This document shows positions 1,302-63,955 of a stretch of 64,000 nucleotides of DNA, piece by piece (within the stretch, counting starts at the first letter, position 1; each line of letters starts with the position of its first letter). This DNA comes from Onchidella celtica (Eukaryota > Mollusca > Gastropoda > Systellommatophora > Onchidiidae). The position numbers were made by a program, and so were the translations under genes. The stretch is taken from positions 19,893,947 through 19,957,946 of the forward strand of contig OZ007581.1 of assembly GCA_963931925.1 (NCBI GenBank), given 5' to 3'. The notes under the pieces were generated by a model. It was not told where the DNA came from. It did no database searches and saw only the letters and a list, made by a program, of their open reading frames with translations.

Positions 1302-1589
1302 CTGGAGGAATTTGACAGGTCATGTTGGAAGTTCTGGCGCATGAGTCCACGTGGGCGATCCAGAATTCTTTATTGCCATAGCTTCTATCGAATTTCATAC
1401 TCATGAAGCCACATCTGGCGTCGAAAGTGCAATGATTCTGGGAGTCAAACCAAATAGTGAGGTGGGGATCTTCCACCTTCTCCACACAGAAATAGAGTAA
1501 AGTGTTGGCAGTAAGTGGTAGACTCGGGCACTTGTTTTTTGTGATATTGAAAACATCACCGTTGACGATCACGTAGACGTATGGTCTAT
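1302..1589 (-). CDS. Gene A exon 4: Ig-like domain
   Basis: 288 nt, phase 1 at both ends (acceptor TTACTTCACAG, donor GTGTGA). The product has NGDVFNIT (sequon NIT), then LLYFCVEK, LTIWFDSQ, CTFDARCGFM, FWIAHVDSC and SNMTCQIPPG. The spacing Cys-x(11)-Trp and 56 residues between the YFC and TC cysteines matches the B-strand Cys, C-strand Trp and F-strand Cys of Ig domains; the CTF...RC pair suggests an extra disulfide. Being phase 1-1, it is a self-contained shuffling module. Closely similar exons occur at 26684-26974 and 63666-63955. Family assignment needs a profile search. Confidence 0.75.
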
Positions 1590-2040
1590 CTGTGAAGTAA
1601 CATCAGAAGGAGGGTGAGGTGATTTTACACAGTACAACCGGAGACATTGGATACCAAGGCGTATCAATTCCGTTGGTCTCGCCGAGCGCGTATCAATAAT
1701 CTCTACAGTACAACATAGCCATATCTCACGCCTTGATAATGGAACGATAAATAACCATTCTGTCGTGCAAAAGCAGCGCGACGTAATGGCTGATTTCATA
1801 GCTTTGAGAAAAACACAAAATTTTATGTGGCATAATCAGTCTATATAATATAAATTTATGAGTTTGCCACATTAAAACTATTACTTCGGTAGTAGCCACG
1901 TTCTGCCGCATTGTTTTATTATTTTTTTTATTGTTGAAACAATTTCAATCCTCAGTTCTGTGAGGAGCCCCTGTGTAGAGATATCTGGTTCTGGATAATC
2001 GCTGATTTGGGTATTTGAAGCTCTCTTTTCATGCTGTAGT

Positions 2041-2205
2041 TTCTTTCTTGTTTTGTATTCGATGGCTTCGCAGCCCTTGAAAGAGCTTAGGAGAACAAGA
2101 AAGCAGTCTCGTTCCGCTTTGCAAAAAATTCTCTCTGAGGCCCTAGCAATCAGCATGGCTTTTTATTGTGTGCATCTGGCAGTCTTGAGTTTCAGTTAGA
2201 TTTAA
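2041..2205. repeat. Intron 3 block shared by genes A and B
   Basis: A stretch ending in a GAGTTTCAG...TTTAATG section resembles 28400-28512 in gene B intron 3, in the same orientation relative to the exons. Interpreted as retained homology from the gene duplication, though a dispersed repeat is possible. The rest of 1590-3318 holds only an AAT microsatellite and unassigned AT-rich intron. Confidence 0.45.
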
Positions 2206-2262
2206 TGTATTGAGTGCGTGGAGTGAATTTCTCATGAAATGGTTGGTCGCGTAAAGTAATAA

Positions 2263-2269
2263 CATCAAC

Positions 2270-2325
<56 letters not shown>
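2263..2325. repeat. (AAT)n microsatellite
   Basis: About 20 trinucleotide units inside intron 3 of gene A. Confidence 0.9.
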
Positions 2326-2327
<2 letters not shown>

Positions 2328-3318
2328 GTGTTTCACTATCACTCAGGGGCTCTCAATTTTACATTTCACAAAATACACGAACTATTTACAAATCTGTATA
2401 TTATAGCACTTAAAATAAATAAATAAAATGGCACGATGAAGAAATAAAACCATTTTTAGCAAAAGCCCATGGATGCAAACATTTAAATTTGACAATTAAA
2501 AATGAACATTAAAAGATAATGCAAAATTATTACAGTCATAAATCAGACTTACAATGGTGAAACGTGCAGTGGGAACAATTTGGACAAGCGTTGTTTAAAA
2601 TAGAACAAGAAAACATTAAAAAAAAAAAAGACAGCACTTCCGCCAGTTTTGTGTGACTAATGTCATCAATCAAGGCTACGACTCTTACATATAATAAATC
2701 TTGAGATTTTTAACAATATATATGAAAGAAAGTAATCTTAATGCTCATATTATACTGTAAAGTACAGAGTAACAGGCGTAAACTGTTTCGTACGCTTAAC
2801 GGTTGGCCCCCCGGGTGTACCTAGCGAAATACAGGCGTTTTAGGATAGGTGGACTCCAGACCAATGAAAAGCTGTCTTTCATCGCCAAGTTAGGATAGGG
2901 TAAGAAAACAAACATTCGAATGGCGGCATGGATGTCGATAGATCTAGATCTACATGTTTTGTTGGACCTGGGGGGCATGAGGGTCTAGTCAGTTTGTATC
3001 AATGGACGGTAGTCAGATTGACTAATCAGGCGAAAAGGGGCTGGGGTAGCCATTGGTGATCGATGTACACACAAGTAGGCCTACATTGGCTGAGATCATA
3101 CCACCGTGGTGCAGGGGTTGAGTGAGTAAGACTTGAATGCCAAGTTTCTGGTACCACCAGATAAGTACTCATGACTGGAATTTGTTGCTGAATTACAATA
3201 TAATTTTTCTTTCTGCAACATCACTCTTACGGGACGAACCACTTTTAAGAACTACTATCCTAAAACATTTGACTACAATGAACCCAGCCCGGGGTCCACC
3301 TATCCTTAAACCTACCAT

Positions 3319-3720
3319 GGGGACAAGGTGGTCTAGAGGCAAGGTGCTCGCCTCTCATGTCAAGGGTCCCGGGTTCAAAACCCGGGCTGTGCAGGCATGT
3401 TGGAAATTGGGATTTTTCTCATATTATTATTTTCGTGTCCCTGATCCTATTGGGGGGGGGGGGGTATAGTAGGATCGAGTACCTAGTCTTCTCGGATAAG
3501 GACGAAAAATTCGGAGGGCCCGTGTGCACGTTAAAGGTACCTTGGCATTTGGAAATCGTAAAGAGCAGGCCGAACAGGCCTCTGCCCTGGCAAAATTGAA
3601 ATTAAAATTAATAGATTAAAATGTATATCATCACCCCCCCCCCCCTCATATCACCAACGAAAATTTATAATTCATTATTAAATAAATATTATCTATATTA
3701 ATAAAAGTGAAACCTTACGA
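3319..3720 (+). mobile_element. tRNA-derived SINE
   Basis: The head has an RNA polymerase III A box (TGGTCTAGAGG, 3329-3339) and B box (GGTTCAAAACC, 3372-3382) with tRNA-like spacing. A body containing TAGGATCGAGTACCTAGTC, GTGCACGTTAAAG and GTAAAGAGCAGGCC follows, then an AT-rich tail with a C run. The body recurs at 39749-39985 and the tail at 32847-32955. It is not a functional tRNA: the acceptor stem does not close and the family is dispersed. Confidence 0.7.
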
Positions 3721-3990
3721 CAATTGCAGCGCGCCTTTCGCTACTCCTCCGTTAATGCTGATTCGGTGGCCCTCAGAGATCATACAGCGCTTGGTATAGA
3801 CCGTGGTCGTGTCCCCGGCACAGAAAATAAAAAAAATAATTAACAACTCGCAGAACGTTTGTATTAGTTGCTATGTTGCGACACATTGGAGTTCGGTCTT
3901 TTTTTTCGGCAAATTAATGTAACTAAGATTGGTTCAGGTATAGACTGTATCACACTCACAAAACAACTTCCGGTTAGGACTGGTTTGAAT

Positions 3991-4876
3991 GGCCTAAACC
4001 TGGGATCCACCTATCTCATACAGATAGGTAGGCCTAAACCTGGGGTCCACCTATCTTATACAGATAGGTAGGCCTACACCCCCGGTGACCACCTATCTTA
4101 TACAGATAGGTAGGCCTACACCCCGGGGTCCACCTGTCTTATACAGATAGGTAGGCCTACACCCCGGGGTCCACCTATCTTATACAGATAGGTAGGCCTA
4201 CACCACGGGGTCCACCTATCTTATACAGACGGGTAGGCCTACACCCCGGGGTCCACCTATCTTATACAGATAGGTAGGCCTACACCCCGGGGTCCACTTA
4301 TCTCATACAGATAGGTAGGCCTATACCCCGGGGTCCACCTATCTTATACAGATAGGTAGGCCTACACCACGGGGTCCACCTATCTTATACAGACGGGTAG
4401 GCCTACACCCCGGGGTCTACCTATCTTATACAGATAGGTAGGCCTACACCCCGGGGTCCACTTATCTCATACAGATAGGTAGGCCTACACCCCGGGGTCC
4501 ACTTATCTCATACAGATAGGTAGGCCTACACCCCGGTTTCCACCTATCTCATACAGATAGGTAGGCCTACACCCCGGGGTCCACTTATCTCATACAGATA
4601 GGTAGGCCTACACCCCGGGGTCCACTTATCTCATACAGATAGGTAGGCCTACACCCCGGGGTCCACTTATCTCATACAGATAGGTAGGCCTACACCCCGG
4701 GGTCCACTTATCTCATACAGATAGGTAGGCCTACACTCCGGGGTCCACTTATCTCATACAGATAGGTAGGCCTACACCCCGGGGTCCACTTATCTCATAC
4801 AGATAGGTAGGCCTACACCCCGGGGTCCACTTATCTCATACAGATAGGTAGGCCTATACCCCGGGGTCCACCTATC
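3991..4876. repeat. 41-bp minisatellite, about 21 copies
   Basis: Period 40-42 bp, mostly 41. Each unit holds three palindromes: TAGGCCTA, ACCCCGGGGT, and the hairpin CCTATCT-TATAC-AGATAGG. Variants such as CTTATCTCATAC dominate the right-hand half, suggesting local homogenisation. It lies in intron 3 of gene A, about 90 bp past the exon 3 donor. Short ORFs inside are translation of the repeat only. Confidence 0.93.
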
Positions 4877-4966
4877 CTCTACCAACATTATGAGCAATTG
4901 CTGAACAATGAGCGCAAATCGGTATTTTCTCTGTTTGCCTTTGTGATTTAGACTACCATAACATAC

Positions 4967-5186
4967 CATAGATCTTGATCTCATCTGAGGTTCCTAAATG
5001 GTGGAGCCTGTGGTCATGCGCCACCCACCTGACTGTGACGACTCGACCACTCAGACTGTCTCTGGCAGGGATATTGCCTCTAACCAGATACCTTGTTAAG
5101 CTCACGGGCAAGTCTTGACACCAACAGCCATCCTTCGGCTGATTACCGGGGTTACAACTACCATGCTTGATATTGATTCTGCAGTG
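4967..5186 (-). CDS. Gene A exon 3: Cys-rich segment
   Basis: 220 nt between the acceptor AACTTCAG (phase 0) and the donor GTATGT (phase 1). It encodes HCRINIKHGSCNPG, then KDGCWCQD, RYLVRGNIP, GRVVTVRWVAH and DEIKIYG. Four cysteines, a Gly-Cys-Trp-Cys motif, an alternating V-V-T-V-R-W strand and a terminal I-K-I-Y-G align with exon 3 of genes B and C. The strand-rich C-terminal half would suit the last strands of a beta-sandwich, but this is inference. The 41-bp minisatellite begins about 90 bp beyond the donor. Confidence 0.75.
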
Positions 5187-5224
5187 CTGAAGTTGAGGAA
5201 AGCACACAAAAATTAGAGAAAGAC

Positions 5225-5885
5225 TAGTCTGAGTGGAGTTTGAGTTTTAAGAAAACACATCGACACGACAAGGGTCATACTGTGCTGGGATGCAAGAAGA
5301 TAGACAGAATAAAGCAGGATGATAAGACAAACGGTGACACTACCAACCGCACCCACCAGTAACACGCTAAGAGAAATGCGGCCCGTATGCATGCACTTGG
5401 TATAAATCCATCCGTTTTGCACCATCGTGCAGGCTTTGTAGTGCATACGGCCGCCTAGGCGTAAACTCAAATTTAGCCGGTATGCATGAACTAAAGTTAC
5501 ACCTTCCTCTCCCTACGTATCAATTGCCACTTACCGTTATAAAACAAAACAAAAAATAACATTGCATCTGTATCGGCCAATCTCTGCCACAAGAAACAAC
5601 GCTGATCCAATTTTTTTCCTTGGCTCGTGAAATCGTAGGTTGGAATAAAATATTAGTTACTCCTTTGTTCCTTTCTAGCAGATGCCACTGCGTAGCTGAA
5701 TTAGGCGTCCTTGGAGGAAGTCTAAAGTTACGAACCCTTGACTGTATGCATGAACTTGGTGAAAATCCGCCCGTTTTGCACCATGGTACAGTCGCTCGAC
5801 CACCTTGGTGTAAACTCAAATTTAGTCAGTGTGCATAAATTAGTTTCAACCACCCCTCAATGCATCATTGCCGCTCAAAACAAAA
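5225..5885. repeat. Dispersed repeat blocks in gene A intron 2
   Basis: 5225-5390 (GAGTTT...ACACGAC...GGTGACACTACCAACC) has relatives at 21610-21770 and 32150-32310; the last is also in intron 2 of gene B. Then two units starting GTATGCATG(A/C)ACTTGGT follow at 5384-5530 and 5743-5885. Relatives of these are at 14708-14830 and, more diverged, 13690-13990. Confidence 0.5.
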
Positions 5886-5989
5886 ATGATCGGGAATGAG
5901 TAGAAATCCATTTTTTTTTCCTTGGCCCCTGCAGTCGGGTTGCAATAAAATGCTAGTTTCTTTCTGTCTTTCTTTCTTTCTAGTTGTCA

Positions 5990-6945
5990 AGAGTCAAACT
6001 ACGATGTAATATATTGGCCTAAGATTAATATTCCCCTATTGAATTAACTCAATTAGTGTATTGTATTGGCCTAATTTAATTGACGTCAGGAGAGTGAAAA
6101 GATGGAGTGACAGGACAGCGGAGATAAACAGAGTAAATAGGATATCGCTGATATTTTTATTAATAGACGAGAACAAGTCAGCAAATATATATACTAAGGG
6201 AGATGGTGGATACTTAGATAAAAGCCACTAGGGCATTAATAAAAGATTAACACCCCGTTTTAGTCTTGGGGGTGGGATTATATTTCTCTACGTCAATTGG
6301 CGGTTAAATTGACAGCCAATGGACAGCCGGCGTATTAATAGCGCCTTCGTAGAGCTAGGAAAGCAGCTGTTCGTCTGGTGGGGACCAGTCAAAGCAGAAA
6401 ACCCATTTGTGTAGGAATCGGAGTGATTCCGCCTGAGGGAATTTACCAAAGAGATGTCTAGATGTAGATCTAGTTTATGAGAATCTATGGCTATTGATGT
6501 TTGCACAATGTGCTGAACGCTTGTAATGAATTGTTCTCGGCCAACTGGTTACGAACACAATGGTGAGTCTCGTCCCCAAGTAACTGTTCGATGAATCAAG
6601 CACATGTAGGCTAACTACTAATCCAAGATGATGCGTGCGTGATTATCCTCGAAGAGGAGAGAAGATGTTCCACCAAGAATGAGTGTGCGAGGAATTGAAG
6701 ATGAATGGTTAAACTTCAGCTAGAGCTACAACTATTTAATGTATAAGATATAACTGTGATTTGAATTGTCTGGGTGAGTCTGGGAATTGCCAGCTCATCC
6801 TAGAGTTATACATCTAACTGTGCCCGACGTCTCCTTGGCGACCTAGGCCAGCTATGAACTTAAGTATTGGAGATAGTCTGATGTCTCCAGAGACTATGTC
6901 AATTGTAATACAGTAAACAGTCCAGATCTTGGAAATAGAAACTAT
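5990..6945 (+). repeat. About 1-kb dispersed repeat (LTR-like?), copy 1
   Basis: Shares ordered blocks with 40065-40910 (same strand), 21930-22990 (same strand) and 49080-49560 (reverse): a TAAAAGCCA(C/G)TAGGGC block, a TGTCTGGGTGAG...TTGCCAGC block and an ATGTCTCCAGAGA block. LINE A sits at its right end and 13330-13700 looks like its continuation, so it was apparently broken by LINE insertions. Ends and coding capacity are unclear; a solo LTR or non-autonomous element is possible. Confidence 0.5.
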
Positions 6946-7057
6946 TTAGTTAGAGTAGTAGAATTTATTAGGAACCATTATTACTACTTTAGTGGGGGAT
7001 TTATGAGAATATATACGACCCTTTTCGCCCTTTTCGTCTTTGCAGCATTTTCTGACT

Positions 7058-15770: not shown

Positions 15771-15955
15771 GCGCCTCCCTAGTGGTTGTCTCTTACTGCC
15801 TATAAACACTTCTGCTATGTTTGTAAAATCCTTTGCTTCCACATTCGCTGTGTAAATGTATGATTCAAAAAATATAGTATCTACATGGGGAAGAAACCCA
15901 TCGAAACAGGATCCATTTGTAAACACGGTTGTCAATATATCTTGACATGAGGCGC
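15771..15955 (-). CDS. Gene A exon 2: N-terminal half of extracellular region
   Basis: Flanked by a TTCTTTTTCAG acceptor (phase 1) and a GTGAGT donor (phase 0); 185 nt, exactly as in genes B and C. The product contains TTVFTNGSCFDGF, with an N-glycosylation sequon (NGS), then DTIFFESY, KDFTNIAEVFIG and an arginine-rich end. Residues shared by all three copies are Cys-x-(D/N)-G-F, an Asp-Phe pair and the AEVF/ADVY-x-G block. No known domain is recognised; it may form the first half of an N-terminal Ig-like or Cys-rich domain completed by exon 3. A MITE (15518-15749) ends 21 bp from the donor. Confidence 0.72.
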
Positions 15956-17147: not shown

Positions 17148-17193
17148 CTGCAATCAGTGAGACAATGGCCAGGAGTAGATGTGCTCGATCCAT
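17148..17193 (-). CDS. Gene A exon 1: signal peptide
   Basis: Starts at an ATG and encodes MDRAHLLLAIVSLIA plus the first base of a Gly codon, followed by the donor GTAAAC (phase 1). Charged N-terminus, hydrophobic core and small residues at the end make a classical secretion signal. The exon is 46 nt, the same as in genes B and C, and the peptide is nearly identical to MAGIHLLLVIVSLPA and MARIHLLLVIVSLIA there. Part of the 5' flank (CTTCTTTAGG, then a GGAAAT block) is shared with gene B, suggesting a conserved 5' UTR. An ORF running on past the donor is intronic. Confidence 0.75.
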
Positions 17194-23334: not shown

Positions 23335-23805
23335 CCTAGTCTTGTGGACCGTCTGAGGCGCCACAGGTGATCTGCCAACCAGCATCCTGCAATCCTGTCG
23401 GTTTTCTGACCTCCTGATAGCATCGCTCAATCTCAAGCCCGTCTATTCTGGGATATTGTCCGCCCATCTCTTCCTCTGTCTGCGACTCCTTCTCCCTCCT
23501 TGCACTGTGCTCTCGTCTTTTCACAGACATCCAGAACATAGCAGTAAAGCTGCCTCGTGAAATCGTTAATGTTGAGAGAAATGCTTTCCTCGATTGACTT
23601 TCCTATGTCTTTCCAGCCACCAACGACTCTACACAAAAACAATATCGTTATGCTTAGACCTAATACATACCTGATTTAAAAGAGACATTCACATTTAGTT
23701 GCTCTTGAGCAGATAACCAACAGCTACAACTGCCAGCATTGCTTTCATGACTTGTAGAGAAGAAGATTCACAGCAGTCTGTCAAATAATGAGTTGGTTTG
23801 TAATA

Positions 23806-24735
23806 CTTGAGTTATTGGAGTGGTTGCGAGCATTATTGTGTGCCACCCTACTTGAGTTATTGGAGTGGTTGCGAGCATTATTGTGTGCCACCCTACTTGA
23901 GTTATTGGAGTGGTTGCGAGCATTATTGTGTGCCACCCTACTTGAGTTATTGGAGTGGTTGCGAGCATTATTGTGTGCCACCCTACTTGAGTTATTGGAG
24001 TGGTTGCGACCATTATTGTGTGCCACCCTACTTGAGTTATTGGAGTGGTTACGACCATTATTGTGTGCCACCCTACTTGAGTTATTGGAGTGGTTGCGAG
24101 CATTATTGTGTGCCACCCTACTTGAGTTATTGGAGTGGTTGCGAGCATTATTGTGTGCCACCCTACTTGAGTTATTGGAGTGGTTGCGATCATTATTATG
24201 TGCCACCCTACTTGAGTTATTGGAGTGGTTGCGAGCATTATTGTGTGCCACCCTACTTGAGTTATTGGAGTGGTTGCGAGCATTATTGTGTGCCACCCTA
24301 CTTGAGTTATTGGAGTGGTTGCGAGCATTATTGTGTGCCACCCTACTTGAGTTATTGGAGTGGTTGCGACCATTATTGTGTGCCACCCTACTTGAGTTAT
24401 TGGAGTGGTTGCGATCATTATTATGTGCCACCCTACTTGAGTTATTGGAGTGGTTGCGAGCATTATTGTGTGCCACCCTACTTGAGTTATTGGAGTGGTT
24501 GCGAGCATTATTGTGTGCCACCCTACTTGAGTTATTGGAGTGGTTGCGAGCATTATTGTGTGCCACCCTACTTGAGTTATTGGAGTGGTTGCGAGCATTA
24601 TTGTGTGCCACCCTACTTGAGTTATTGGAGTGGTTGCGAGCATTATTGTGTGCCACCCTACTTGAGTTATTGGAGTGGTTGCGACCATTATTGTGTGCCA
24701 CCCTACTTGAGTTATTGGAGCAGTTGAGGTCGTAA
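23806..24735. repeat. 45-bp minisatellite, about 20 copies
   Basis: Unit starts CTTGAGTTATTGGAGTGG. Because 45 is divisible by three and several frames of the unit lack stops, four ORFs of over 300 codons appear on both strands. Variation is confined to the base after GCGA (G, C or T) and to TTGTG/TTATG. The order of variants (GGGGCCGGTGGGCTGGGGGC) is irregular. I reject coding function. Confidence 0.95.
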
Positions 24736-24807
24736 TTGTTCCCCCATGCTCTTGTTTACCTTTCCGGGTTTTCATCTTTGAAGTTATTTCCCGCCTCTAC
24801 CCTTTAC

Positions 24808-26683: not shown

Positions 26684-26974
26684 CTGGAGGTATTTCACAG
26701 GTGAAGTTTGATGTTCTTCGGCATGCATCCGTGTAGGCGAACCAGAATTGTTTATTGGCATAACTTTCATGGAACTCCATCTGCATGAAGCCGCACCTGG
26801 CGTCGAAAGTGCAGTGACTCTGGGAGTCAAACCAAATGGTGAGCTGGGGATCTTCCGCGTTCTCCACACAGAAGTAGAATAAAGTAGATCGAGTAAGTGG
26901 TAGACTCGGGCACTCCATATTCTCCGTGATATTGAAGACATCACCATTCACGACAATGGAGGCTTTTGGTACAG
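26684..26974 (-). CDS. Gene B exon 4: Ig-like domain
   Basis: 291 nt, phase 1-1, acceptor AATGTACAG and donor GTATGT. Contains VVNGDVFNIT, LFYFCVEN, LTIWFDSQ, CTFDARCGFM, FWFAYTDAC and SNFTCEIPPG. It keeps all six cysteines and both predicted N-glycosylation sequons (NIT, NFT) of gene A exon 4. Substitutions cluster between the conserved blocks, consistent with a translated gene. An alternative acceptor 12 nt further in (also phase 1) cannot be excluded. Confidence 0.77.
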
Positions 26975-31413: not shown

Positions 31414-31633
31414 CATAGACCTTGATCTCCTTTGAACTTCCTAAAAGATCGCCCCTGTAGCTTTGTGCCCTCCACCTGATTGTGACTACTTGACCATCCA
31501 TCCGGGGGGTTGCGTCAATATAGCCTTTAACCAGGTACTTTCTGGAGCTTTCGGGTTGGTCTTCGCACCAGCAGCCATCCCTCCGCCGATTACGGTAGTT
31601 ACAGTGACCTCGCCTAATATCTATATTGCAGAG
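31414..31633 (-). CDS. Gene B exon 3: Cys-rich segment
   Basis: 220 nt, acceptor CCCTTAACTTCAG (phase 0) and donor GTATGT (phase 1). The product reads LCNIDIRRGHCNYRNRR, DGCWCEDQ, KYLVKGYID, DGQVVTIRWRAQ and SKEIKVYG. Same length and cysteine pattern as gene A exon 3. No long ORF covers it in the right frame, which is why it is easily missed. A MITE (31687-32145) lies just upstream in intron 2. Confidence 0.75.
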
Positions 31634-33309: not shown

Positions 33310-33494
33310 GCGTGTATAAAGTGGATGGTCCATAGGGCCCAAGAACACTTCGGCTTTGTCCTTAAAATCTCCTCTTTTCACATACCCTAGGTGAAGATAT
33401 GATTCATAAAATATAGTATCTCTTTGGGAGAGAAACCCATCTTGACATGATCCATTTGTAAACACAGTGGTCACTATTCCTTCACTTGCGGCAC
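33310..33494 (-). CDS. Gene B exon 2: N-terminal half of extracellular region
   Basis: 185 nt between a CAG acceptor (phase 1) and the donor GTGAGT (phase 0). It encodes GIVTTVFTNGSCQDGF, DTIFYESYLHLGY and GDFKDKAEVFLG, about half identical to gene A. The NGS sequon and the Cys-x-D-G-F block are kept. Neighbouring exon 3 lies 1.7 kb further left. Confidence 0.72.
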
Positions 33495-34191: not shown

Positions 34192-34237
34192 CTGCAGGCA
34201 GTGAGACAATGACCAGGAGTAGGTGTATTCCAGCCAT
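34192..34237 (-). CDS. Gene B exon 1: signal peptide
   Basis: ATG followed by MAGIHLLLVIVSLPA and the first base of a Gly codon, then the donor GTAACA (phase 1). Length is 46 nt as in genes A and C. The start is set by the ATG closest to the hydrophobic core and by conservation of this Met in all three copies. Confidence 0.75.
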
Positions 34238-35712: not shown

Positions 35713-36387
35713 AGGAAGACTAGGGGAAGGTAACCCTAATACAAATACCACACTGCCTTGTGTGTTGCTATGATAGCAAAGGCTATGGGAGTAAACCCAG
35801 ACAGAAAATCAGGAGTGGAGACCCGAAGGTGGTTGTCAGGGAGAACTGCATCAAACTGGCTTCCAGCATCTCCTGCAGCCGGACTAGTTCCAAATGTATT
35901 GACCTGGTCTCTCCCTTGGGTTTAACTAGAATGGCAGAGAGAGGGGTGGTGCCTCTGGGCAAAGCACCATCTCTTAAAAATAGCCCAGGCAAGGCAGCAA
36001 AACGAGGAGACGTTTGCTCGGGCTTGGCAAGCGTCTGTCTCTCCTCTATAAGCCCACCCATTTCCGATTTGGAGAGGACACTCCAGCCATCCGTTACGGA
36101 TGGGCACAACACGGGAGGTGGCAGTTACCGGTGATAAGCTCAATCCATTTGGCGTACGGATGAGCGCCAGGGGTCCCCTCTGTCGGTGGGAGCGGCTTTT
36201 CAGCTGCATTGATCAACTACCGCCCGCCGTAACCTGGGCAGCCCCCAGGCAGTTGGGTGTTGTTCCGCCACGTCAGCCTGCTTCATAAGGTGGTTGGAGC
36301 TAGACCAAAAGTCGAAAAGCTGACGTAAAGTGTGCACCTGGCAAAAACAGAAAAATACTAAAACTTGGTACCTGGAACGTCAGAACA

Positions 36388-39300
36388 ATGCGCCCAGGCT
36401 TGCAACACCAAGATCTCACTGTTTCCATCAGGAAATCCCAAATTATTGATCGAGAACTTCAGCTACTAAACATCGACATCGCTGCCCTTCAAGAAACTCG
36501 ACTTCCCGACTCCGGGTCAGTCAAAGAAGAAAACTACACCTTCTTCTGGCAGGGCCTTAGCAGCGAACAGCCGAGAATCCACGGTGTGGGCTTCGCCATA
36601 AAAAACTCCCTTATCAATTCGATCGCAACTCCAATTGGAGTGTCAGAACGCATCATGACACTCAGACTGAACACCCGGTCTGGTTTTACCAACATTATCT
36701 GTGTCTATGCCCCTACACTTACCTCCTCTGACGAAACCAAAGACATTTTCTACGAGGCATTGCAGAGGACTCTCCACAACATCCCTCTCACCGAAGGCCT
36801 GCTAATTCTGGGTGACTTTAACGCTCGAGTGGGAGCAGATCACTCCGCATGGCCAAGGTGCATTGGGCACTTCGGCATTGGCAACATCAACGAAAACGGG
36901 CAGCGCCTTCTGGAGCTATGCTCCGTAAACTCATTATGTGTTACAAACACGTACTTTGACCTTAAGAGATGCCAAAGAACATCATGGCGCCATCCCAGGT
37001 CTGGCCATTGGCATCAATTATATCTTATTCTCTCAAGGAGGAAGAGTTTGGGCTGTATAAAAATAACTCGTTCCCTCCACAGTGCTGACTGTGACACCGA
37101 CCATGCACTGGTAGTCAGCAAAATCAAAATTTCGGCCAAGAAAATATACAGATCAAAAGCCCCTTCAATCCCTAAGATCAATGTAATAGCAATCAGAGAT
37201 GAATCAAATAGAAAGTCATTTGAAAAGTTATTTGCTGAAAGCATGGATAATGTCACCCAATGTGACTCGGTAGATGAAACATGGAACACTCTCAGTTCAA
37301 AAATTCATGACTGTGCCATCAAGTCTTTTGGACAGCATAAAGTTTCAAACAACGACTGGGTAGCCCAGAACAGCGAAATTCTCCTACCTCTCATTGAGCA
37401 AAAGAAATCTGCTTTCAATGAGTATAACAAAAATTGCAATCAGAGTACAAAAACTTGTTTGAAAAATGCAAAAGCTAAACTTCAGCTGGAGGTAAGACGT
37501 TGCGCCAACAAATACTGGACAGACTTGTGTAACAGCATACAAGAGGCAAATGAAAAGGGAGATATGAAAACCGCCTTTAGTCAGATGAAAGTAGCTCTTG
37601 GGCCAATCATCACCAAAAGCGCCCCACTTAAGTCTGTAAATGGTGAACCCATCACAGATAAAAATGAACAACTGAATAGGTGGGTAGAGCATTACTCTCT
37701 GTTGTATTCAACTGAGAAAAATATTCCACCAGATTTTGAGGAACACCTCCAAAAACTGCCAATAATGGCCGAACTTGACGCTGAACCTTCCTTAGTCGAG
37801 CTTTCCAATGCAATCGACCACCTGTCTGCTGGAAAAGCCACAGGAAGTGACAACATTCCTGCAGAGGTATTAAAAGACCTAAAAGGCCCACTATTACCAC
37901 ACCTGTATAATCTGTTACTGCAGTGTTGGAAAGAAGGCGTGATACCACATGATATGAGAGACGCCAAAATTGTCACACTTTACAAGAACAAAGGAGACAA
38001 AGGCGACTGCAACAACTATCGAGGCATATCCCTCCTCAGCATTACTGGAAAGGCTTTTGCTCGCGTCATCCTCTGCCGCCTTCAACAACTGGCGGAAAAA
38101 GTCTTACCAGAAACACAGTGTGGCTTTCGAAGCAAACGATCAACTATTGACATGATATTTGCACTTCGGCAAGTCCAAGAAAAATGTAAAGAACAAAACA
38201 GGCCGCTTATAACATGCTTTGTGGACCTAACAAAGGCTTTCGACACCGTAAGCCGATCTGGCCTGTATGCAGTCCTTAAATCCATAGGCTGTCCACCAAC
38301 ATTGCTAAAACTTATTGCATCCTTCCACACTGACATGAGGGCATGTGTCAACTTTGAGGGCTGCACATCCAATTCATTTGCTGTAAACAGCGGTGTGAAG
38401 CAGGGATGTGTTCTTGCTCCTACCTTATTTGGTATATATTTTGCAGCCCTACTCAAGAATGCCTTTGGTCAATGTTCAGGTGGAGTACTTATTAACACCA
38501 GAGTGGACGGCTCCATTTTTAATGTTGCCAGACTAAAAGCAAAATCTCGTACAGAGCATATTATGTTACAAGAGCTCCTCTTCGCAGATGATGCTGCAAT
38601 CGTGGCCCACGATGAAACCACGCTCCAGGCTCTCATCAATAGCCTTGCCAAAGCCTGTGACAAATTCATGCTAAAGATCAGTGTCTCAAAAACTGTAGTT
38701 TTGACACAAGGCTTGAGAAACCCCAACCCAATCATGCTGAATGGCTCTCCTCTGGAGCAAGTGGGAAAATTCTGCTACCTAGGCTCAACCATCAGTGGTA
38801 GCACAGACATAACAACTGAAATAAATGCCAGAATAGGAAAGGCGGCCACAGCTTTTGGCAAACTCTCAAAAAGGGTGTGGAACAATAGCAAGCTGACCAT
38901 CAAAACAAAGGTACTCGTGTACCAAACTTGCGTCCTAAGCACCCTGCTGTATGGCTCAGAGACATGGACCACCTACTCCAAACATGAAAGATCCCTCAAC
39001 TCCTTCCACCTGCGCTGCCTACGCAAAATTCTCAAGATCAAGTGGCAAGACAGGATCTCAAATATCGAAGTTCTGAGCCGAGCCAACATTCCATCAACTC
39101 AGGCTCTCCTAGGCAAAAAAAGACTGCGGTGGCTTGGACATCTCCACCGTATGGAAAATGATCGCATCCCCAGACAAATTCTCTACGGGGAACTTGCTAC
39201 TGGCAACCGACCCAGAGGTAGGCCACATCTGCGATTCAAAGACACTTGCAAGGTCACGATGAAAGCATTCAACATCGACCCCAATGAATGGGAGAACCTT

Positions 39301-39513
39301 GCAAATGATCGAAGCAGATGGAGACAAAAATTGCGCAGTGGCACGCTCGCAATAGACTTCAAGGCAAAAGAAACATACCTGACAAAACGACAGAGGCGGA
39401 ATGAAAACACTCGCCAAAGTGAACCCAAAAGACTGACCTGCAATCACTGCCATCGCACTCTCGGGTCAAACATTGGTAGAATAAGCCACGAGAGAAGCTG
39501 TCAGTCAAAATGA
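36388..39513 (+). CDS. LINE B ORF: APE endonuclease - reverse transcriptase - zinc finger
   Basis: 1041 codons from the first ATG. Endonuclease: AALQETRLPDSG, GDFNARVGAD (about residue 142), SADCDTDHALV (about 232). RT: YKNKGDKGDCNNYRGISLL, FVDLTKAFDTV (about 613), GVKQGCVLAPTLFG (about 668), LLFADDAAIVA (about 732). C-terminal Cys-x2-Cys-x12-His-x3-Cys finger CNHC...HERSC (about 1017-1037). The frame is open upstream to a TAG near 36301 and includes LGTWNVRT just before the ATG; this block carries the conserved Asn of APE folds, so the annotated ATG probably truncates the protein. LINE A has the same arrangement. Confidence 0.92.
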   Translation: MRPGLQHQDLTVSIRKSQIIDRELQLLNIDIAALQETRLPDSGSVKEENYTFFWQGLSSEQPRIHGVGFAIKNSLINSIATPIGVSERIMTLRLNTRSGFTNIICVYAPTLTSSDETKDIFYEALQRTLHNIPLTEGLLILGDFNARVGADHSAWPRCIGHFGIGNINENGQRLLELCSVNSLCVTNTYFDLKRCQRTSWRHPRSGHWHQLYLILSRRKSLGCIKITRSLHSADCDTDHALVVSKIKISAKKIYRSKAPSIPKINVIAIRDESNRKSFEKLFAESMDNVTQCDSVDETWNTLSSKIHDCAIKSFGQHKVSNNDWVAQNSEILLPLIEQKKSAFNEYNKNCNQSTKTCLKNAKAKLQLEVRRCANKYWTDLCNSIQEANEKGDMKTAFSQMKVALGPIITKSAPLKSVNGEPITDKNEQLNRWVEHYSLLYSTEKNIPPDFEEHLQKLPIMAELDAEPSLVELSNAIDHLSAGKATGSDNIPAEVLKDLKGPLLPHLYNLLLQCWKEGVIPHDMRDAKIVTLYKNKGDKGDCNNYRGISLLSITGKAFARVILCRLQQLAEKVLPETQCGFRSKRSTIDMIFALRQVQEKCKEQNRPLITCFVDLTKAFDTVSRSGLYAVLKSIGCPPTLLKLIASFHTDMRACVNFEGCTSNSFAVNSGVKQGCVLAPTLFGIYFAALLKNAFGQCSGGVLINTRVDGSIFNVARLKAKSRTEHIMLQELLFADDAAIVAHDETTLQALINSLAKACDKFMLKISVSKTVVLTQGLRNPNPIMLNGSPLEQVGKFCYLGSTISGSTDITTEINARIGKAATAFGKLSKRVWNNSKLTIKTKVLVYQTCVLSTLLYGSETWTTYSKHERSLNSFHLRCLRKILKIKWQDRISNIEVLSRANIPSTQALLGKKRLRWLGHLHRMENDRIPRQILYGELATGNRPRGRPHLRFKDTCKVTMKAFNIDPNEWENLANDRSRWRQKLRSGTLAIDFKAKETYLTKRQRRNENTRQSEPKRLTCNHCHRTLGSNIGRISHERSCQSK

Positions 39514-43175: not shown

Positions 43176-43348
43176 GTAGTTTGAAAACAGCCCCCTGAGC
43201 TGCTGACAGCCGAATGCTCTGCAGACAGGATTCTGGCGTGGAGATCATCAGGAGAGAATGCGTCGCTGTTTCGGGCTCTACCTCTCTACAGCTATTTTAA
43301 TGACGCACCGAGCCCCCTCACTGATGTGAGGTCTCCTTGCCAGTTCGA
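43176..43348. repeat. 173-bp direct repeat, left copy
   Basis: Matches 46884-47056 at 171 of 173 positions. It separates the nested LINE from the RT half of LINE C. Confidence 0.93.
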
Positions 43349-46883: not shown

Positions 46884-46956
46884 GTAGTTTGAAAACAGCC
46901 CCCTGAGCTGCTGACAGCCGAATGCTCCGCAGACCGGATTCTGGCGTGGAGATCAT
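44500..46956 (-). CDS. Nested LINE: zinc finger and reverse transcriptase
   Basis: 818 codons to an in-frame TAG; the reported Met lies in the flanking repeat, so the true start is further in. N-terminal finger CGQCGRSF...HQGRAC (Cys-x2-Cys-x12-His-x4-Cys). RT blocks: FRPISIINVTCKIFMGILA, VVWLDLANAYGSVPH and the unusual catalytic AFMDDVTLL, with Met-Asp-Asp in place of Ala-Asp-Asp. A Lys/Arg-rich stretch between finger and RT may bind nucleic acid. Clade (R2 superclade, Hero-like?) is tentative. Confidence 0.85.
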   Translation of the reverse strand: MISTPESGLRSIRLSAAQGAVFKLLITCGRCMPLTSWKDRTTTRSDGWTSGETEDVGRDRRWQGLTTHVTVFTVTSTTSKDSPRIHREGGVEDGSTRIDPMDNDPSMKRTMTNDQRENSSICGQCGRSFGTWRGMRVHQGRACLKERRQCGSTDRKTRSKSSQDENHSGEISASVNSSSVQVQVGADPTTQEPGSRKPRILWPAANKKDKYKILEKKVKEKLRESKEKASIGDAKEMLGLFANIIYETAMEKFDSCESKKKTPAKAGGPSRALAQIRKQKRDLQKQRKSAPPDQEEGLKILYEDLKKRSRDLQRQERRCSRRKERKRAREQFLKNPYEAAKKLFTEARSGKLTCTKEELDAHVRQTYSDPKSNEPLPDMRGLKRPTAPGVSFRLGPFTEKEVDDFVKRARAKSAPVGDGVSYRVFKYCGELRHILYVLLRDLWDDKELVDDWCKAEGVYLPKEQDAESIGQFRPISIINVTCKIFMGILARRVVAYLQGNGYVDESVQKAGVPGTPGCIEHAFTIWEAIQDAKKAKSNLNVVWLDLANAYGSVPHKLLMKAMEFFYIPRKVQDIMNEYYSKFQMRFSTEEFTTEWHRLEIGIAAGCTISVIWFILVMEMLLRSAGLSEEEAEVRAPKKAFMDDVTLLTKDADIMQTVLARLDELVTWSRMKFKAKKSRSLTLHKGKQKQQKFTIAGEKIPTVKDEPVKSLGRWYAGALNDKSRGVAIMKQAEDGLKAIDKTRLPGKYKIWCLQFALYPRLAWPLTMYEVALSRVEMIERACNNFIRKWLGLPRTINTSALYRQKGALQVPLTSIVEIY

Positions 46957-47056
46957 CAGGAGAGAATGCGTCGCTGTTTCGGGCTCTACCTCTCTACAGC
47001 TATTTTAATGACGCACCGAGCCCCCTCACTGATGTGAGGTCTCCTTGCCAGTTCGA
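46884..47056. repeat. 173-bp direct repeat, right copy
   Basis: Partner of 43176-43348, separating the nested LINE from the endonuclease half of LINE C. Confidence 0.93.
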
Positions 47057-54782: not shown

Positions 54783-54784
54783 TA

Positions 54785-55450: not shown

Positions 55451-55783
55451 CAGAGAGTATAGATATATAGAGAGGGTTCACTATTGGTCAATTTGCACTG
55501 CGAGACATGAGAGGCGCCTCGAAACCATTGTTAGCATGGAGCAGAAAGTAGGTCGCTGCGGTAAAAAATACCCGTTTGTGCATTTCCACGTGGCGTAAGA
55601 GCTTACAAACGGCTCTAAATAGTTTCATTCAGCCCAAAAATATAAACAAACCACACTAAACAGATATGCACACTATCTTTGGTGAAGAAGGTCTCTTTCA
55701 ATTCTTCAATTTCTTGTTTACCGCAGCGACCTAGTTTCGCAATTTGGAGGAGGTGAACCCTCTCTATACATCTATACTCTCTG
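55451..55783. mobile_element. 333-bp MITE, 31-bp TIRs, 7-bp TSD
   Basis: The ends CAGAGAGTATAGAT(A/G)TATAG are inverted repeats (30 of 31 bp match) and GTAATAG is duplicated on both sides (55444-55450, 55784-55790). Internal sequence is related to 50876-51079. No coding capacity. Confidence 0.82.
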
Positions 55784-55821
55784 GTAATAGACAATGCTTT
55801 CTGTCCTTGACGTCTCTTCTA

Positions 55822-56532: not shown

Positions 56533-57225
56533 TATACAAAAAAAATGTTAGAAAACCCCTTTGTTCCCTATGGACTCAAAAACTACTGGACGTATTGAAC
56601 TGAAATTTGGCACACACACTTGTACGATACTGACCAGTGTTCCTATGTACATAGGCATAAAAAAGCTTATGGCATTCGTGAGTTATTCCAATAATGTGAT
56701 AAGAATGGAACAGTAAATTTGCGAGAGCGTTTGATCCGAACTGTACGTTCGTTAACCTATGACCTCTTTCTTTGTTAATCGCTTTTCCACTTCCGGCCCC
56801 GGAATTCGATTCATAATCACAGCTAGATCTAGCATGCACTGATGCAGCATGCCCCCTAAAAAACGTACTATCGGTAGGCATACAAGTCTCAAATCGTTGT
56901 AGTTTTTTTTATTGGAAATTTATTGTTTCGCCATCATTCAGATCTATTTCGAGTCATGGTTCGCCATTTTAAGGTTTCGTTATCATTACCTGCGATGCTT
57001 TCACTATCAAACACACTAACCCGTGCGCAAATCATGCAGTTGTACGGGATGCGCAGGGTGTCAACTCACAAAGGCAGAGCAGTAAGACTTATTTAAAAAC
57101 AAACAAACAAAAATAAAATAAACAAATAGGAACAGGCCAGATGAAGCAGGTCCATAATAACCACCCAGAACTGAAACCAATATTCAAACCGATTTATCCC
57201 CGGTAGGGCCGGGGACCTCAGCTAG
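56533..57225 (+). mobile_element. Helitron-like element, second unit
   Basis: Begins TATACAAAAAAAATG immediately after the CTAG of the first unit, and ends with the same hairpin (one G-T change) and CTAG. Over 95 percent similar by eye, minus a few small deletions (for example near 56819). Confidence 0.75.
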
Positions 57226-57740
57226 TTCTGAAAACGCTCGCAAAAAATTCTTAAAGTTTAGAATTTTAATTGTCCAGACTGTGATATTTGGTCACCAAAA
57301 TCTGCTTAGATGCACATAATAACGTCACCATTCAATGCATTGCACGCCCAGGAAGCGGAGATGAAGGAAGAGTCCCACCCATTTCATTCATTTCGGTCGG
57401 ACGGAAAAGCATCAGCCAATATCTGTTTCATGTGTGTAGAGGTGTCTCTGTGGGAGAACTGCGAAAGTAAGACTAGTAGCCCACTGAGTTAAGTCTGCTT
57501 TTTAGACGTTTGCAGACGCTTTGTACCATCTGTCCACGACTTACTGCTTGCATGTAGCCAATCCAGTGGTATTTAGGAGGATACCGCCCACGGCTGTCGA
57601 ATGGCAGTCTGTTTCAGATTCACGTCAGTTTTAACGCAGACTTGAAACTCCTTTGAATCAACCAGATCTAGATCTAGATCTAACAAAAATCGACTTATTT
57701 CATTCTAAGTAAGATTATGGTAAAAAGAAAAATTTGTATA
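57226..57740. other. Spacer without recognised gene
   Basis: Contains short ORFs (60 codons) with no recognisable motif. Begins directly after the Helitron pair. Confidence 0.4.
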
Positions 57741-59195: not shown

Positions 59196-59428
59196 TATGT
59201 GTTAACATACCCGTTAGCGAATGGATGCAATAGTGTACATTGGTATAAATATGGGTTTGCAGATACATAGTTTATATTGCGAGCAGGCAATGTTGTGTGT
59301 GCAGTTGCAGAGATGTTATTCAGTGTATGTAGGTAATGTCACACCAACACGCTGCTGTCACTTCTGTTTCGACTTTCATTTTTCAAATGCAGGAAATCTT
59401 GGCCAGTTAATGTGACTGATGAAGTTGT

Positions 59429-59474
59429 ATGGCTAGGATACATCTACTTCTGGTCATTGTCTCTCTGATTGCAG
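59429..59474 (+). CDS. Gene C exon 1: signal peptide
   Basis: Encodes MARIHLLLVIVSLIA plus one base of the next Gly codon, then the donor GTATAC (phase 1). Nearly identical to the signal peptides of genes A and B; 46 nt. Upstream, a GCAGGAAAT stretch resembles the GAGGAAAT in the 5' flank of gene B. Confidence 0.73.
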
Positions 59475-60606
59475 GTATACGTGTCCGGCTTGTTGTCTTT
59501 GCAGTAAATGTAACCGTAGGAACAGTTCATCAAGAGATATCAGTGACAATGTAAGGAGTGAAACAGATCAAAGCTGGTGTAGGCGCCAGACTGATGGCTC
59601 GCCGCCCATAAATTTTGCTTCACACTAACACAATCAGCACTGCACAGACGGCGACCCAGCGGGATGCACCGAACAGTGCCTGTTGTGCTAGAGTAAAGCA
59701 AAATGTACGGGCGATGAGCCACCGGTCTAGAACCTATACCAGCCTTATCCTGTTTTAACTCCTGACAGTGGCAAAGTCTGAACACACTTCATATGCCCAA
59801 GTTGTTTTACATCCCCCTCCCTCCATGTGGTTGATGGATATTTCTAGACGGATTTTCTTCTTTGTTATCATTCTGCCTGTAGCATGTCTATCGCCTGTGC
59901 TGATTGCTAGCATTGTGGTGCCAACGTGCTTTCTGATAACTGAAACTCAAAAATAGAAAAAAAAAAAAAAGCCATACTGCCACTGTCAAAAATAGAGGTT
60001 TGGATAACTATATTTTCGCGAAACTGGCGCGTAGACAGTATCCCCCATAGATAATTCTATAGTTGTGGCTTAAACTTTACTAAGGTCCTGAGGAACATTC
60101 ATAGCAATTTGGTTATGTATCAAATTTAAAACGGCAGTTACGGGATCCAAACCATAATTTTTCAAACATTCAAAACTAGTAGCCTTAAAGCTTTACGCCT
60201 AGTGCCTAAACATGGCCGGAGTTAAGCTGACATTGACACTATGTCAAGAAGTTATTGAAAACTTAACTACCATAAGCTGTGCATATTCTTTTAATGATAA
60301 ACTTAAGGCGCTTTTCTTGGCAGGTCTTGGTTTACAATACATTCCTCAGATGCTCCCCTTTGTCTACTGTTGAAGTGGCAAGAAAGAGAAAGCATTTACA
60401 TTTAAGGGAAATTATGACACCCCCCCCCCCATTCCAAAAAAAAGACGCATGCAACTGTAACATTTACAATCTGCAATAATAATGCTATTACATTGCTTAC
60501 AATACCAAAGATATACATCATACATTCAGTTGCTAATCACAAATATATCTCCTTTTCCTTCTGGCCTCCATGATTTAAATACTGTCTCTTTGGTTCTCTC
60601 AATCAG

Positions 60607-60791
60607 GTACCGTGAGCCAAAACATTGAATTAACTTATAGAGACAGAGGACGTTGTCAAAATGGGTTTCCTACCTCAAAAGATAGTTTGTCGCTGGAGGC
60701 TTTTTTGCACTTTGGTCGAGCGAGGACATCTGACTTTGAGAGAATGGCGGATGTGTATGTAGGCACGAACAAAATCCCGTATGCCAAGTTG
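60607..60791 (+). CDS. Gene C exon 2
   Basis: 185 nt between CTCAATCAG (phase 1) and GTGAGT (phase 0). It encodes VSQNIELTYRDRGRCQNGF, LEAFLHFGR, SDFERMADVYVG and IPYAKL. It is diverged from A and B (the NGS sequon is lost, RGRC instead of NGSC), but Cys-x-N-G-F, Asp-Phe and ADVYVG are retained in register. The preserved length and reading frame argue that it was under selection for some time. Confidence 0.68.
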
Positions 60792-61639
60792 GTGAGTATT
60801 CCCTGTAACTCTGTTGCTACTTGTATGTATGCACCTCAAGCGGTTTGCGTTAGGGGTGCGTCCGTTTACGTACCTATCCCTAACCCCTTCTTATCCTCAA
60901 CCCTAAATCTTATCGAATCCCTAACCCTGTCCACCCCCCCCCCTTTGGAACCAAAAAACAGGAGAAAAACAAAAACAAATTCAGACAAAATAATTAAATA
61001 ACGCTGTTGTTTACGAATATTTCGTGAGGGGCTCTCTAGCTCTGGGGTCACAAAAGGCTTTATGCGTGCCCCTAAAGCAAAAAAATTGGTGGACGTAGGC
61101 CTTTGTAACAACATTTTTATGCGCAAGTGCTTGGGTCCCGTATGTAGCCTACTTGTAACAACATTCATGTTAACTTATACTATCAACAGTTACTGTAAGG
61201 TTTGTGTCTGTAACCCTAAGGCACTAGTCGAATTGATCGGTTGATTAGTTGGATGGTGACGTCACGATATTGAGTTTCTGGGAGATCCAACTAGTTGGTT
61301 GGTGCCCAGGTCTCATTGGAACTGATGGCGTCATCATCCAAGTAGTTGGCAGATCGACATCGGCCAAGGCGCGCCTGGGCTAAAGGTTGGAAGGAACAGC
61401 ACGTGGTCACTATTGGATCATTTTCTTGTCTGTGGGTGGATCAGGCCCTGTCGCTATTCAGATTATTAAAAGTTGGTTGAATTAGTGACGGAGTTCTACT
61501 GACTGGTGAGAAACGGTGACTAAAGCGTAACACCCGATAAGGTGTCTGACAGAAGGTCTACGGGTCTCAATAAGAGACAGGGAATAAGGAATGGGGAAAT
61601 AAGAGCAAAAAACAGGTCTCGAACCAGTACTCAGCTCTG

Positions 61640-61860
61640 TACAGAAGCAACAAGTGAAATGATTAGGACACCTCATAAGAATGCTTCCAAATGCACCACC
61701 TCAAAGGGCATTGACATTGAAATGCAATGGCAGAAAACCCAGAGGGCAACAACGCAAACAGTGAAGTGATGACATTAAAGAGACGCTTGCAGTTCGCCGC
61801 AAACCCTGCCAGAAGCGGCGTCCTCTCCGTGGTACAAGAGGCAGCCACGATGAAGGAGAA
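61640..61860 (+). pseudogene. Decayed LINE RT C-terminal fragment in gene C intron 2
   Basis: One frame reads GHLIRMLPNAPPQRALTLK, CNGRKPRGQQRKQ, then after a stop DDIKETLAVRRKP. The GHxxRM...R.P.G...DD pattern is that of the region following the RT domain. Confidence 0.5.
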
Positions 61861-62048
61861 GAAGAAGGAGGTAGTCTTGCCTCAGTCCGATTACTTGGAA
61901 TTAACCTGTTTGCTCATAGGAATGGCATCGTCCCGATATAGGTCTGCTAGTTACGATAAGGCTCCGCCGTCGGTCTGATGTAGGAAATTCGCTCCCGTCA
62001 ATTGTATTTCACTCAAACACAGTAGGCACTGCCAGTGGCATCCCGCTT

Positions 62049-62626
62049 GGTCGAGGTGTGGGCAGTGCCTACTGTGTTAGTGGTTAGCAAACTTTACAAG
62101 CTGCGAGCCACCAGATGGCGCCTACACCAGCCTTGGTCTATTTCAACCGTAAGAACGCTGGCTGGGATATTGTCTGATAACATTTTGTACTTTTATTCTG
62201 AACTTTGATGAGTTATTTGTGCATTCGCGCAAACAGAAACTAAAATCAATTCTAAATGATTGCTCCCACCCCTTGTTCTATAAGATAGTCCGACCCCAAA
62301 GAAGTGGAAGGATACTGTATTTAAATACAAACAGAGAGCGCTATAGACAATCTTTTTTGCCATCCGCAGTTCGAGGTAGCAGTGTTTCCTGGTGTAGTAC
62401 ATGCTGTTGTTAGTTTTTCCTAATGGATTGTTCTTACAGTGCGTGCGTGTGAGCAATGTTCTTACTTGTTGGTAATGTCATGTGAGCCATGTGCGTGTGT
62501 GCGGCGTGCGTTAAAGACCTGTAGGTCTTAGATATTGTATTTGTAATGTTCCTGGAAACAGGACAATAAAGTCATATCTTATCTTATCTTATCTTATCTT
62601 ATCTTATCTTATCTTATCTTATCAAC
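62049..62626 (+). mobile_element. 5'-truncated LINE 3' end with (TTATC)n tail, abutting gene C exon 3
   Basis: Encodes LNDCSHPLFYKIVRPQRSG and RYRQSFLPSAVRG, a LINE C-terminus related to but distinct from the 17.6/50.2 kb family, then a 3' UTR (GACCTGTAGGTCTTAG) and about nine TTATC units. The tail ends eight bases before the exon 3 splice acceptor. The left boundary is approximate. Confidence 0.7.
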
Positions 62627-62631
62627 TTCAG

Positions 62632-62854
62632 CAATGCATACTCCGATTTCGTCAAGGTGAGTGCACTAACCGGGCTCTGACGAGGCCAGCCTGCTGGTGT
62701 AATGCGATTACAAACGGTGGCAAAACTTACGTGGCCAGAATCAATATCCTAATAACCGATGATCTAGACGGCAAAACAGTCTCAGTCAAATGGATGTCAA
62801 GAATTAGTTGGTATGCTTTACAATCATCCTCAACACCCCCCTTGCGGGTTTATG
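62632..62854 (+). CDS. Gene C exon 3: Cys-rich segment
   Basis: 223 nt, acceptor AACTTCAG (phase 0) and donor GTAAGT (phase 1). Product: QCILRFRQGECTNRAL, ACWCNAITNGG, TYVARINIL, DGKTVSVKWMS and LRVYG. Same cysteine spacing and terminal strand as genes A and B, one residue longer. Only the last eight acceptor nucleotides are like the paralogues; directly upstream is the (TTATC)n tail of a LINE fragment, which now forms the pyrimidine tract. Confidence 0.72.
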
Positions 62855-62979
62855 GTAAGTTTTCCTCACTGTGGCCCAAAGCGCATTGGGTCTAGTCTGT
62901 TTTGTTTTCTTTGTAAAAATGGAGATAATCACTTCTTGCACTGAACGGACGATATCAGGGTCTCAGTTCTTGTTCATTA

Positions 62980-63250
62980 TGTGAGAGCTTTTAACTAATA
63001 ATATGTAGAAAAGGTATGACAAATGCACACTCTGATACTTGTTTAAGCTGCGTTGTGGCACTATCAAGCCGTTTCACAATTCCGATTTATTCCAACTCCT
63101 TATCATCATACTAAAGCCACAAATATCTAACATCGGATTTCTCGGTTGTGCAAAAAGTGGAATGGGAACAAACAAGAAATTGGTCGGGATAATTTTGTTC
63201 CTGATACAACAGTTAAAAAAAGAGTTCATGTGACAGGCCACTTAAACATT
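62980..63250. repeat. Gene C intron 3 block shared with 51700-52400
   Basis: Blocks AATGCACACT(C/T)TGA, AAGC(C/T)GTTTCACA and GTTGTGCAAAAAG are shared in order with 51700-52400, where a LINE fragment and a MITE interrupt them. May mark a decayed fourth gene copy near 52 kb or simply a dispersed repeat. Confidence 0.45.
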
Positions 63251-63665
63251 TCATAATATCATAGCCTTGCCATGTTAGCATTAATTTACCTTTCTGATGG
63301 TCGTAGGCTTGTTCAAGGGGAGTGACGAACTGAAGGCGTATATGAAAAGAATACGGGAGGAGGGTGTCGCCTAGGTGTTCTATAGAATTATTAGAATGTC
63401 TTGCTTTTTTTTTTTAAAATACGCTTATTTCCATCTGAACTTCCTGTAATAATACACTGCATTGGTCTTACACACCGCGATAGCCAGAGAGGGCTGTTCA
63501 CAATAGTACGGTATTTCAACTCTGTACGCTTAGTACGAGCCTTGGAATTTCATTTGCCATCAGAGGCACAGGGATCACCACAAACTCGCCAAAATCTAGC
63601 ACACGTACTTTATGGACGGTCTTGTATGTAAAATCACCCCGTAATAATAATTGTTTCCAATCTAG

Positions 63666-63955
63666 CATCGACACCTTACGTCAGTGTGGTCGTCAACGGA
63701 GATGTTTTCAATATCACGGAGAACAATTGCCCCAGCTTGCCAATTACCGCCAATACTACTTTCTATTTCTGTGTGGACAACTTGGAAGATCCCACCTCAT
63801 TATTTGGTTTGACTCCCAGCATCAATGCACTTTCAACTCCAGATGTGGCTTCATGAGCATGCTGTTTGACGCACGTTATGGGAATAGACAGTTCTGGATT
63901 GCATTCACCGATGTATGCAGAAGGGATTACAACGTCACATGTCAAATACCTCCAG
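63666..63955 (+). pseudogene. Gene C exon 4: Ig-like domain with frameshift
   Basis: Acceptor TTTCCAATCTAG, phase 1. The first frame gives VVVNGDVFNIT and TTFYFCVDNLEDP; then the frame must shift to continue as IIWFDSQ, CTFNSRCGFM, FWIAFTDVC and YNVTCQIPPG. Compared with genes A and B one C is missing in the CCC run at 63791-63793, so exon length is 290 instead of 291. The following GCATGT replaces the GTATGT of gene B. All cysteines survive, so the lesion is recent or a sequencing error. Confidence 0.68.

Follow-up and report, generated by a model that had tools for sequence, protein, structure and literature searches.

What do the small exons dispersed among the long interspersed nuclear elements (LINEs) and other repeats of one stretch of the Onchidella celtica genome encode? 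The stretch, called the window here, covers 64,000 nucleotides (nt), 19893947-19957946 of contig C15, from an animal genome assembled into 43 contigs that total 1.14 Gb. With moderate confidence, and judging from sequence, we propose that the exons encode glycosylphosphatidylinositol (GPI)-anchored surface recognition proteins, in which a constrained domain B would lie near the membrane and a diversifying domain A would be outermost. The exon structure, the paralogy of the genes and the terminal stop that they have in common are seen in the DNA. In the five-exon model, exon 1 starts a signal peptide, exons 2 and 3 encode an N-terminal domain A that changes fast, and exon 4 encodes a better conserved domain B; the last exon is short.

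The original prediction had placed twelve exons on two strands, in a cluster of three paralogous four-exon genes with intron phases 1, 0, 1. Exon boundaries of these genes were set here from the DNA itself, splice sites included, and all twelve positions and the matching phases were confirmed; the two exon 3 copies hidden from searches for long open reading frames (ORFs), 31414-31633 and 62632-62854, are real. Exon lengths of 46, 185, 220/220/223 and 288/291 nt also stand, except that exon 4 of gene 3 has 290 nt and is frameshifted. The four-exon model does not stand, as a fifth, terminal exon follows exon 4. The features, in window coordinates, are as follows.

Gene 1 exon 1: 17148..17193, minus strand, start of the signal peptide, 46 nt, phase 1 end
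Gene 1 exon 2: 15771..15955, minus strand, first half of domain A, 185 nt
Gene 1 exon 3: 4967..5186, minus strand, second half of domain A, 220 nt
Gene 1 exon 4: 1302..1589, minus strand, domain B, 288 nt
Gene 1 exon 5: -623 to -705, minus strand, just outside the window
Gene 2 exon 1: 34192..34237, minus strand, start of the signal peptide, 46 nt
Gene 2 exon 2: 33310..33494, minus strand, first half of domain A, 185 nt
Gene 2 exon 3: 31414..31633, minus strand, second half of domain A, 220 nt
Gene 2 exon 4: 26684..26974, minus strand, domain B, 291 nt
Gene 2 exon 5: 23695..23777, minus strand, terminal, 83 nt including the stop, GPI-signal-like, DCCESSSLQVMKAMLAVVAVGYLLKSN
Gene 3 exon 1: 59429..59474, plus strand, start of the signal peptide, 46 nt
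Gene 3 exon 2: 60607..60791, plus strand, first half of domain A, 185 nt
Gene 3 exon 3: 62632..62854, plus strand, second half of domain A, 223 nt
Gene 3 exon 4: 63666..63955, plus strand, domain B, 290 nt, frameshift near 63790, GC donor
Gene 3 exon 5: 70634-70716, plus strand, just outside the window

Splice sites are in register, with AG at all nine acceptors of exons 2-4 and GT at 11 of the 12 donors of exons 1-4; the donor of gene 3 exon 4 is GC. The paralogy of exons 2-4 is not due to chance, because their tblastn matches have E values of 1.8e-7 to 3e-48 against a best E of 0.003 in 50 dinucleotide shuffles. The 16-residue exon 1 by itself fails to beat the shuffles (E 0.002-0.14) and is backed by DNA alignments spanning the exon and its flanks (E 2e-47, 1e-17 and 5e-13). 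These signal-peptide exons read MDRAHLLLAIVSLIAG, MAGIHLLLVIVSLPAG and MARIHLLLVIVSLIAG, and the hydropathy of the N-termini (best 11-residue value 2.6-3.0) agrees with the conserved signal peptides that had been claimed. The conserved cysteine (Cys) pattern is borne out as well: the three genes have 11 Cys in common, gene 3 being read as two pieces. Two sequons near the end of exon 4, NIT and N-x-T, are likewise present in every one of them. The genes may begin with a further, non-coding exon, since each ATG has an acceptor-like site 36-53 nt to its 5' side. Two minisatellites lie within these genes, one of 45-nt units within intron 4 of gene 2 (23804-24739) and one of 41-nt units within intron 3 of gene 1 (3991-4882).

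The first models were incomplete, because exon 4 runs into a phase-1 donor in each of the three genes. When the genomic DNA downstream of exon 4 was compared among genes 1, 2 and 3, a single block was common to them in order, and its acceptor, phase and frame identify it as the terminal exon. Exon 5 reads DCCGASSLQVMKAMLAVVALGHLLKMN in gene 1, DCCESSSLQVMKAMLAVVAVGYLLKSN in gene 2, DYCDAAALQVMKAMVAVVAVGYLLKTD in gene 3 and DCCDASSLKALTSMLAVVAIGHLLKMSLI in gene 6, a further copy described below. All four genes have an in-phase acceptor and an open frame here, and the stop codon comes 27-29 residues into the exon, at an identical position in genes 1, 2 and 3 (TAG, TAA and TGA, respectively). One alternative frame has stops in all four genes; the other is open in gene 1 and closed by a stop in each of genes 2, 3 and 6. 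All known exons of genes 1, 2 and 6 are open and their five-exon models complete, with a protein of 273 aa for gene 1 and one of 274 aa for gene 2. As separate observations on this region, DNA is conserved beyond the stop up to a donor-like site (23660-23777 in gene 2 and the copies in genes 1, 3 and 6), and a second exon 5 frame is open across the last two thirds in the same four genes; overlapping or alternative use of the region is possible.

In GPI-anchored proteins, a signal peptide precedes the ectodomain, and small residues, a spacer and a hydrophobic end follow it at the C-terminus. The tail encoded by exon 5 has this layout: small residues, a short spacer and 12 hydrophobic residues almost at the C-terminus. 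In genes 1, 2, 3 and 6, the 12-residue windows adjoining the C-terminus score 2.2-2.5 on the Kyte-Doolittle scale, and sequence and hydropathy together give each of the four a GPI-like C-terminal signal. The hydrophobic stretch of about 12 residues ends 3 residues before the stop in genes 1-3 and is shorter than a usual transmembrane helix; similar tails are found in genes 5 and 7. The hydrophobic GPI-signal-like tail makes surface anchoring likelier than free secretion. Like known GPI-anchored proteins, the products have a Cys-rich ectodomain between the two signals; unlike typical ones, their ectodomains have no Pfam match, and their anchoring is a prediction from sequence. In the mechanism proposed, the tail would act as a GPI-attachment signal holding the protein at the cell surface, domain B would be the membrane-near support and domain A the binding face. 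Duplication would enlarge the cluster and so allow recognition of partners that change; these would most likely be parasites or microbes, with gametes or kin as a further possibility.

The cluster is larger than the three related genes at first reported. With flanking DNA added, 220 kb on the left side of the window and 70 kb on the right, the stretch came to 354 kb, and its six-frame ORFs were searched with profiles of exons 1-5. This search for further copies, also proposed at the outset, found at least five beyond genes 1-3, so that the cluster holds at least eight, tandem and inverted; gene 3, on the plus strand, has the opposite orientation to genes 1 and 2. Genes 4-8 are found some 34-66 kb past the right end of the window, within about 95.5 to 132 kb in its coordinates, and the cluster may extend further because the stretch read ends at 133.9 kb.

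Gene 4: exons 3 and 4; exon 2 borderline (12.5 bits)
Gene 5: exons 2-4 and the tail (tail 14.6 bits)
Gene 6: all five exons detected
Gene 7: exons 2-4 and a weak tail (9.6 bits)
Gene 8: exons 3 and 4; exon 2 doubtful (6.8 bits)

The highest scores of the control sequences (one reversed, two shuffled) were 14.1 bits for exon 1, 12.3 for exon 2, 9.4 for exon 3, 10.9 for exon 4 and 11.4 for exon 5. Matches of exons 3 and 4 in genes 4-8 have 61-165 bits, above these maxima. The profiles were built including genes 4-6; genes 7 and 8 were excluded, and their exon 3 and 4 matches have 61-114 bits. Near or below the control scores are gene 4 exon 2, the gene 7 tail and gene 8 exon 2. In the 220 kb of left flank, a single exon-4-like ORF besides gene 1 exon 5 exceeds the controls (13.8 bits against a maximum of 10.9). 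It lies on the minus strand 25 kb left of the window (-24902 to -25195), has five Cys in register by eye and is possibly a distant relative; the profile search found no companion exon for it.

An immunoglobulin (Ig)-like nature had been proposed for the domains and is not established by the results obtained here. Pfam gave no Ig match with three proteins at E<=10, nor with seven domain B and five domain A sequences at E<=1, and the ectodomains matched no Pfam family. Domain A, encoded by exons 2 and 3, has five conserved Cys including a C-x-C motif, and direct reading found no Cys...Trp...Cys pattern in it. In domain B, the two candidate Ig Cys are invariant; the tryptophan (Trp) is present in four of the seven copies and absent from three. 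A conserved Ig Cys...Trp...Cys core is thus lacking. Two exon 4 models are all beta at low confidence (predicted local distance difference test 59 and 60), with mixed and weak structure matches. Divergent Ig domains may go undetected by Pfam, and that the domains are true, diverged members of the Ig superfamily is a serious if tentative possibility, independent of the anchoring question.

Homologue searches with the cluster proteins gave none at E<=1 among 126 and 23 candidates compared, in a search that needs shared 5-residue words and so misses distant relatives. A control search with a LINE protein from the window brought up 710 proteins at E<=1e-20; nr entries from Batillaria and Branchiostoma are named among the 120 matches listed, so the collection does include animals. 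A literature search, judged by titles, found no publication on this family, and the three minus-strand frames of the 9.5 kb past gene 2 exon 4 gave no Pfam match in a scan above the size of exon 5. The cluster is assigned here to no named family, in agreement with the original prediction. A new fold, should it be confirmed, would extend the set of animal recognition modules by one domain. It is doubtful that the cluster is an undescribed recognition system of GPI-anchored receptors with a new fold, in which domain A would diversify for ligand binding and constraint and gene conversion would homogenise domain B together with the anchor exon.

Between genes 1 and 2, amino-acid change in domain A exceeds that in domain B at equal silent change; an outer domain that changes faster than the remainder is frequent among recognition proteins. 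Nonsynonymous divergence (dN) is 0.34, 0.36 and 0.20 in exons 2, 3 and 4, and synonymous divergence (dS) is even at 0.42, 0.51 and 0.45; Fisher tests of A against B, on rounded counts, give p values of 0.0039 for nonsynonymous and 1.0 for synonymous change. The identity of exon 2 in this pair (71%) is no higher than that of the intron flanks (68% and 73%). When gene 6 is compared with genes 1 and 2, identity is 63-68% in exon 4 and 29-33% in exon 3.

Which partners such proteins might bind was considered against known systems. PTC2 and GRC are clusters of orphan surface-protein genes controlling parasite resistance in snails, and PTC2, as described, has no known domain besides a transmembrane segment and paralogues less than 50% alike (PMC7494358). 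In the available accounts, PTC2 and GRC (PTC1) of Biomphalaria are polymorphic clusters of single-pass transmembrane genes (PMC7494358, PMC10875847). The cluster here resembles them in its small, diverse paralogues with a predicted surface location. It differs, when compared by description, in its short GPI-signal-like C-terminus, where theirs is a transmembrane segment and tail. Biomphalaria FREPs, as far as described in PMC7588048, similarly have a signal peptide, two extracellular domains of about 100-135 aa and duplicated genes; here no fibrinogen domain is found and the protein ends 27 aa after exon 4, while the Ig nature of the domains is not established. Identity with FREPs was rejected because no C-terminal fibrinogen domain follows, the stop lying within the first 29 residues of exon 5.

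The receptor or defence-type role first suggested is kept in part: recognition proteins are favoured, and it is the analogy with the snail PTC2 and GRC clusters, and only that, which favours defence, reproductive or kin recognition fitting equally well. An immune role can only be inferred. Reproductive proteins, too, are known for clustering, duplication and uneven change among domains. The same architecture serving gametes, mates, kin or developmental adhesion instead of defence is considered rather unlikely; the sequence evidence here does not separate a reproductive from a defence role. Orphan surface-protein genes are hard to find because no known family matches them. With full models of genes 1, 2 and 6, a domain singled out as fast-changing and a probable way of anchoring, the cluster opens polymorphism, expression and binding to direct testing.

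Several observations weigh against anchored proteins with a diversifying domain A. The dS of gene 6 is higher in A (1.37 and 2.46) than in B (0.68), so saturation or gene conversion contributes to the contrast between the domains. That contrast is absent between genes 5 and 7 (omega 0.55, 0.52 and 0.50 in exons 2, 3 and 4) and between genes 2 and 6 (0.34 in A, 0.31 in B). Omega of domain A is mostly below 1 (0.5-1.06 for pairs of genes 1-3), and positive selection is accordingly not demonstrated. Gene 3 is broken as read. As to the tail, its GPI signal was judged by eye and hydropathy, the profile search of the 354 kb found no tail for genes 4 and 8, and the join between exon 4 and the tail is tentative in genes 5 and 7. 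Exon 5 also has an omega of 0.46-1.06 over 26 codons, with an unusually low dS of 0.14-0.35, and in genes 2, 3 and 6 a donor-like site is found about 30 nt past the stop; together these leave a different 3' end possible.

These points on the tail bear on a rival reading, secretion of the proteins in soluble form, in which the hydrophobic end encoded by exon 5 would be no anchor signal or would be replaced through alternative splicing. The post-stop donor-like site, conservation that passes the stop and the manner in which the tail was assessed speak for this. Against it, the tail frame alone is open in genes 1, 2, 3 and 6 from the in-phase acceptor, the stop is common to genes 1-3, and related hydrophobic tails are found in genes 5 and 7; solubility is considered unlikely, and surface anchoring is preferred.

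In gene 3, the frame of exon 4 is shifted by a C run near 63790 that is one base short of its counterparts in genes 1 and 2. The gene is not intact as read because a 290-nt exon 4, not a multiple of three, sits between phase-1 introns. Omega is 0.26-0.31 on either side of the shift, so the frameshift is recent or an assembly error, and gene 3 is a pseudogene or an assembly error. A decaying cluster made up mostly of pseudogenes would account for this frameshift, the GC donor and the incompleteness of genes 4 and 8 as found, but it is very improbable, since genes 1, 2 and 6 are open in every known exon and exon 4 omega is low, at 0.31-0.44 among these three as well as on both sides of the shift in gene 3.

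Apart from these genes, the window is LINE-rich and contains a transposase with DDE_3 and helix-turn-helix matches. Direct repeats of 173 nt with 2 mismatches (43176-43348 and 46884-47056) flank a reverse-transcriptase element (RVT_1, E 4e-19), and this inserted element splits another LINE, with residues 14-369 and 386-1068 of the host LINE on either side. The repeats look like an unusually long target-site duplication; an exceptionally long one is reportedly the subject, by its title, of one study on rotifer R9. The LINE at 36304-39513 has an uninterrupted 1069-aa ORF with endonuclease and reverse transcriptase, and its best relatives among the matches listed are 72% identical.

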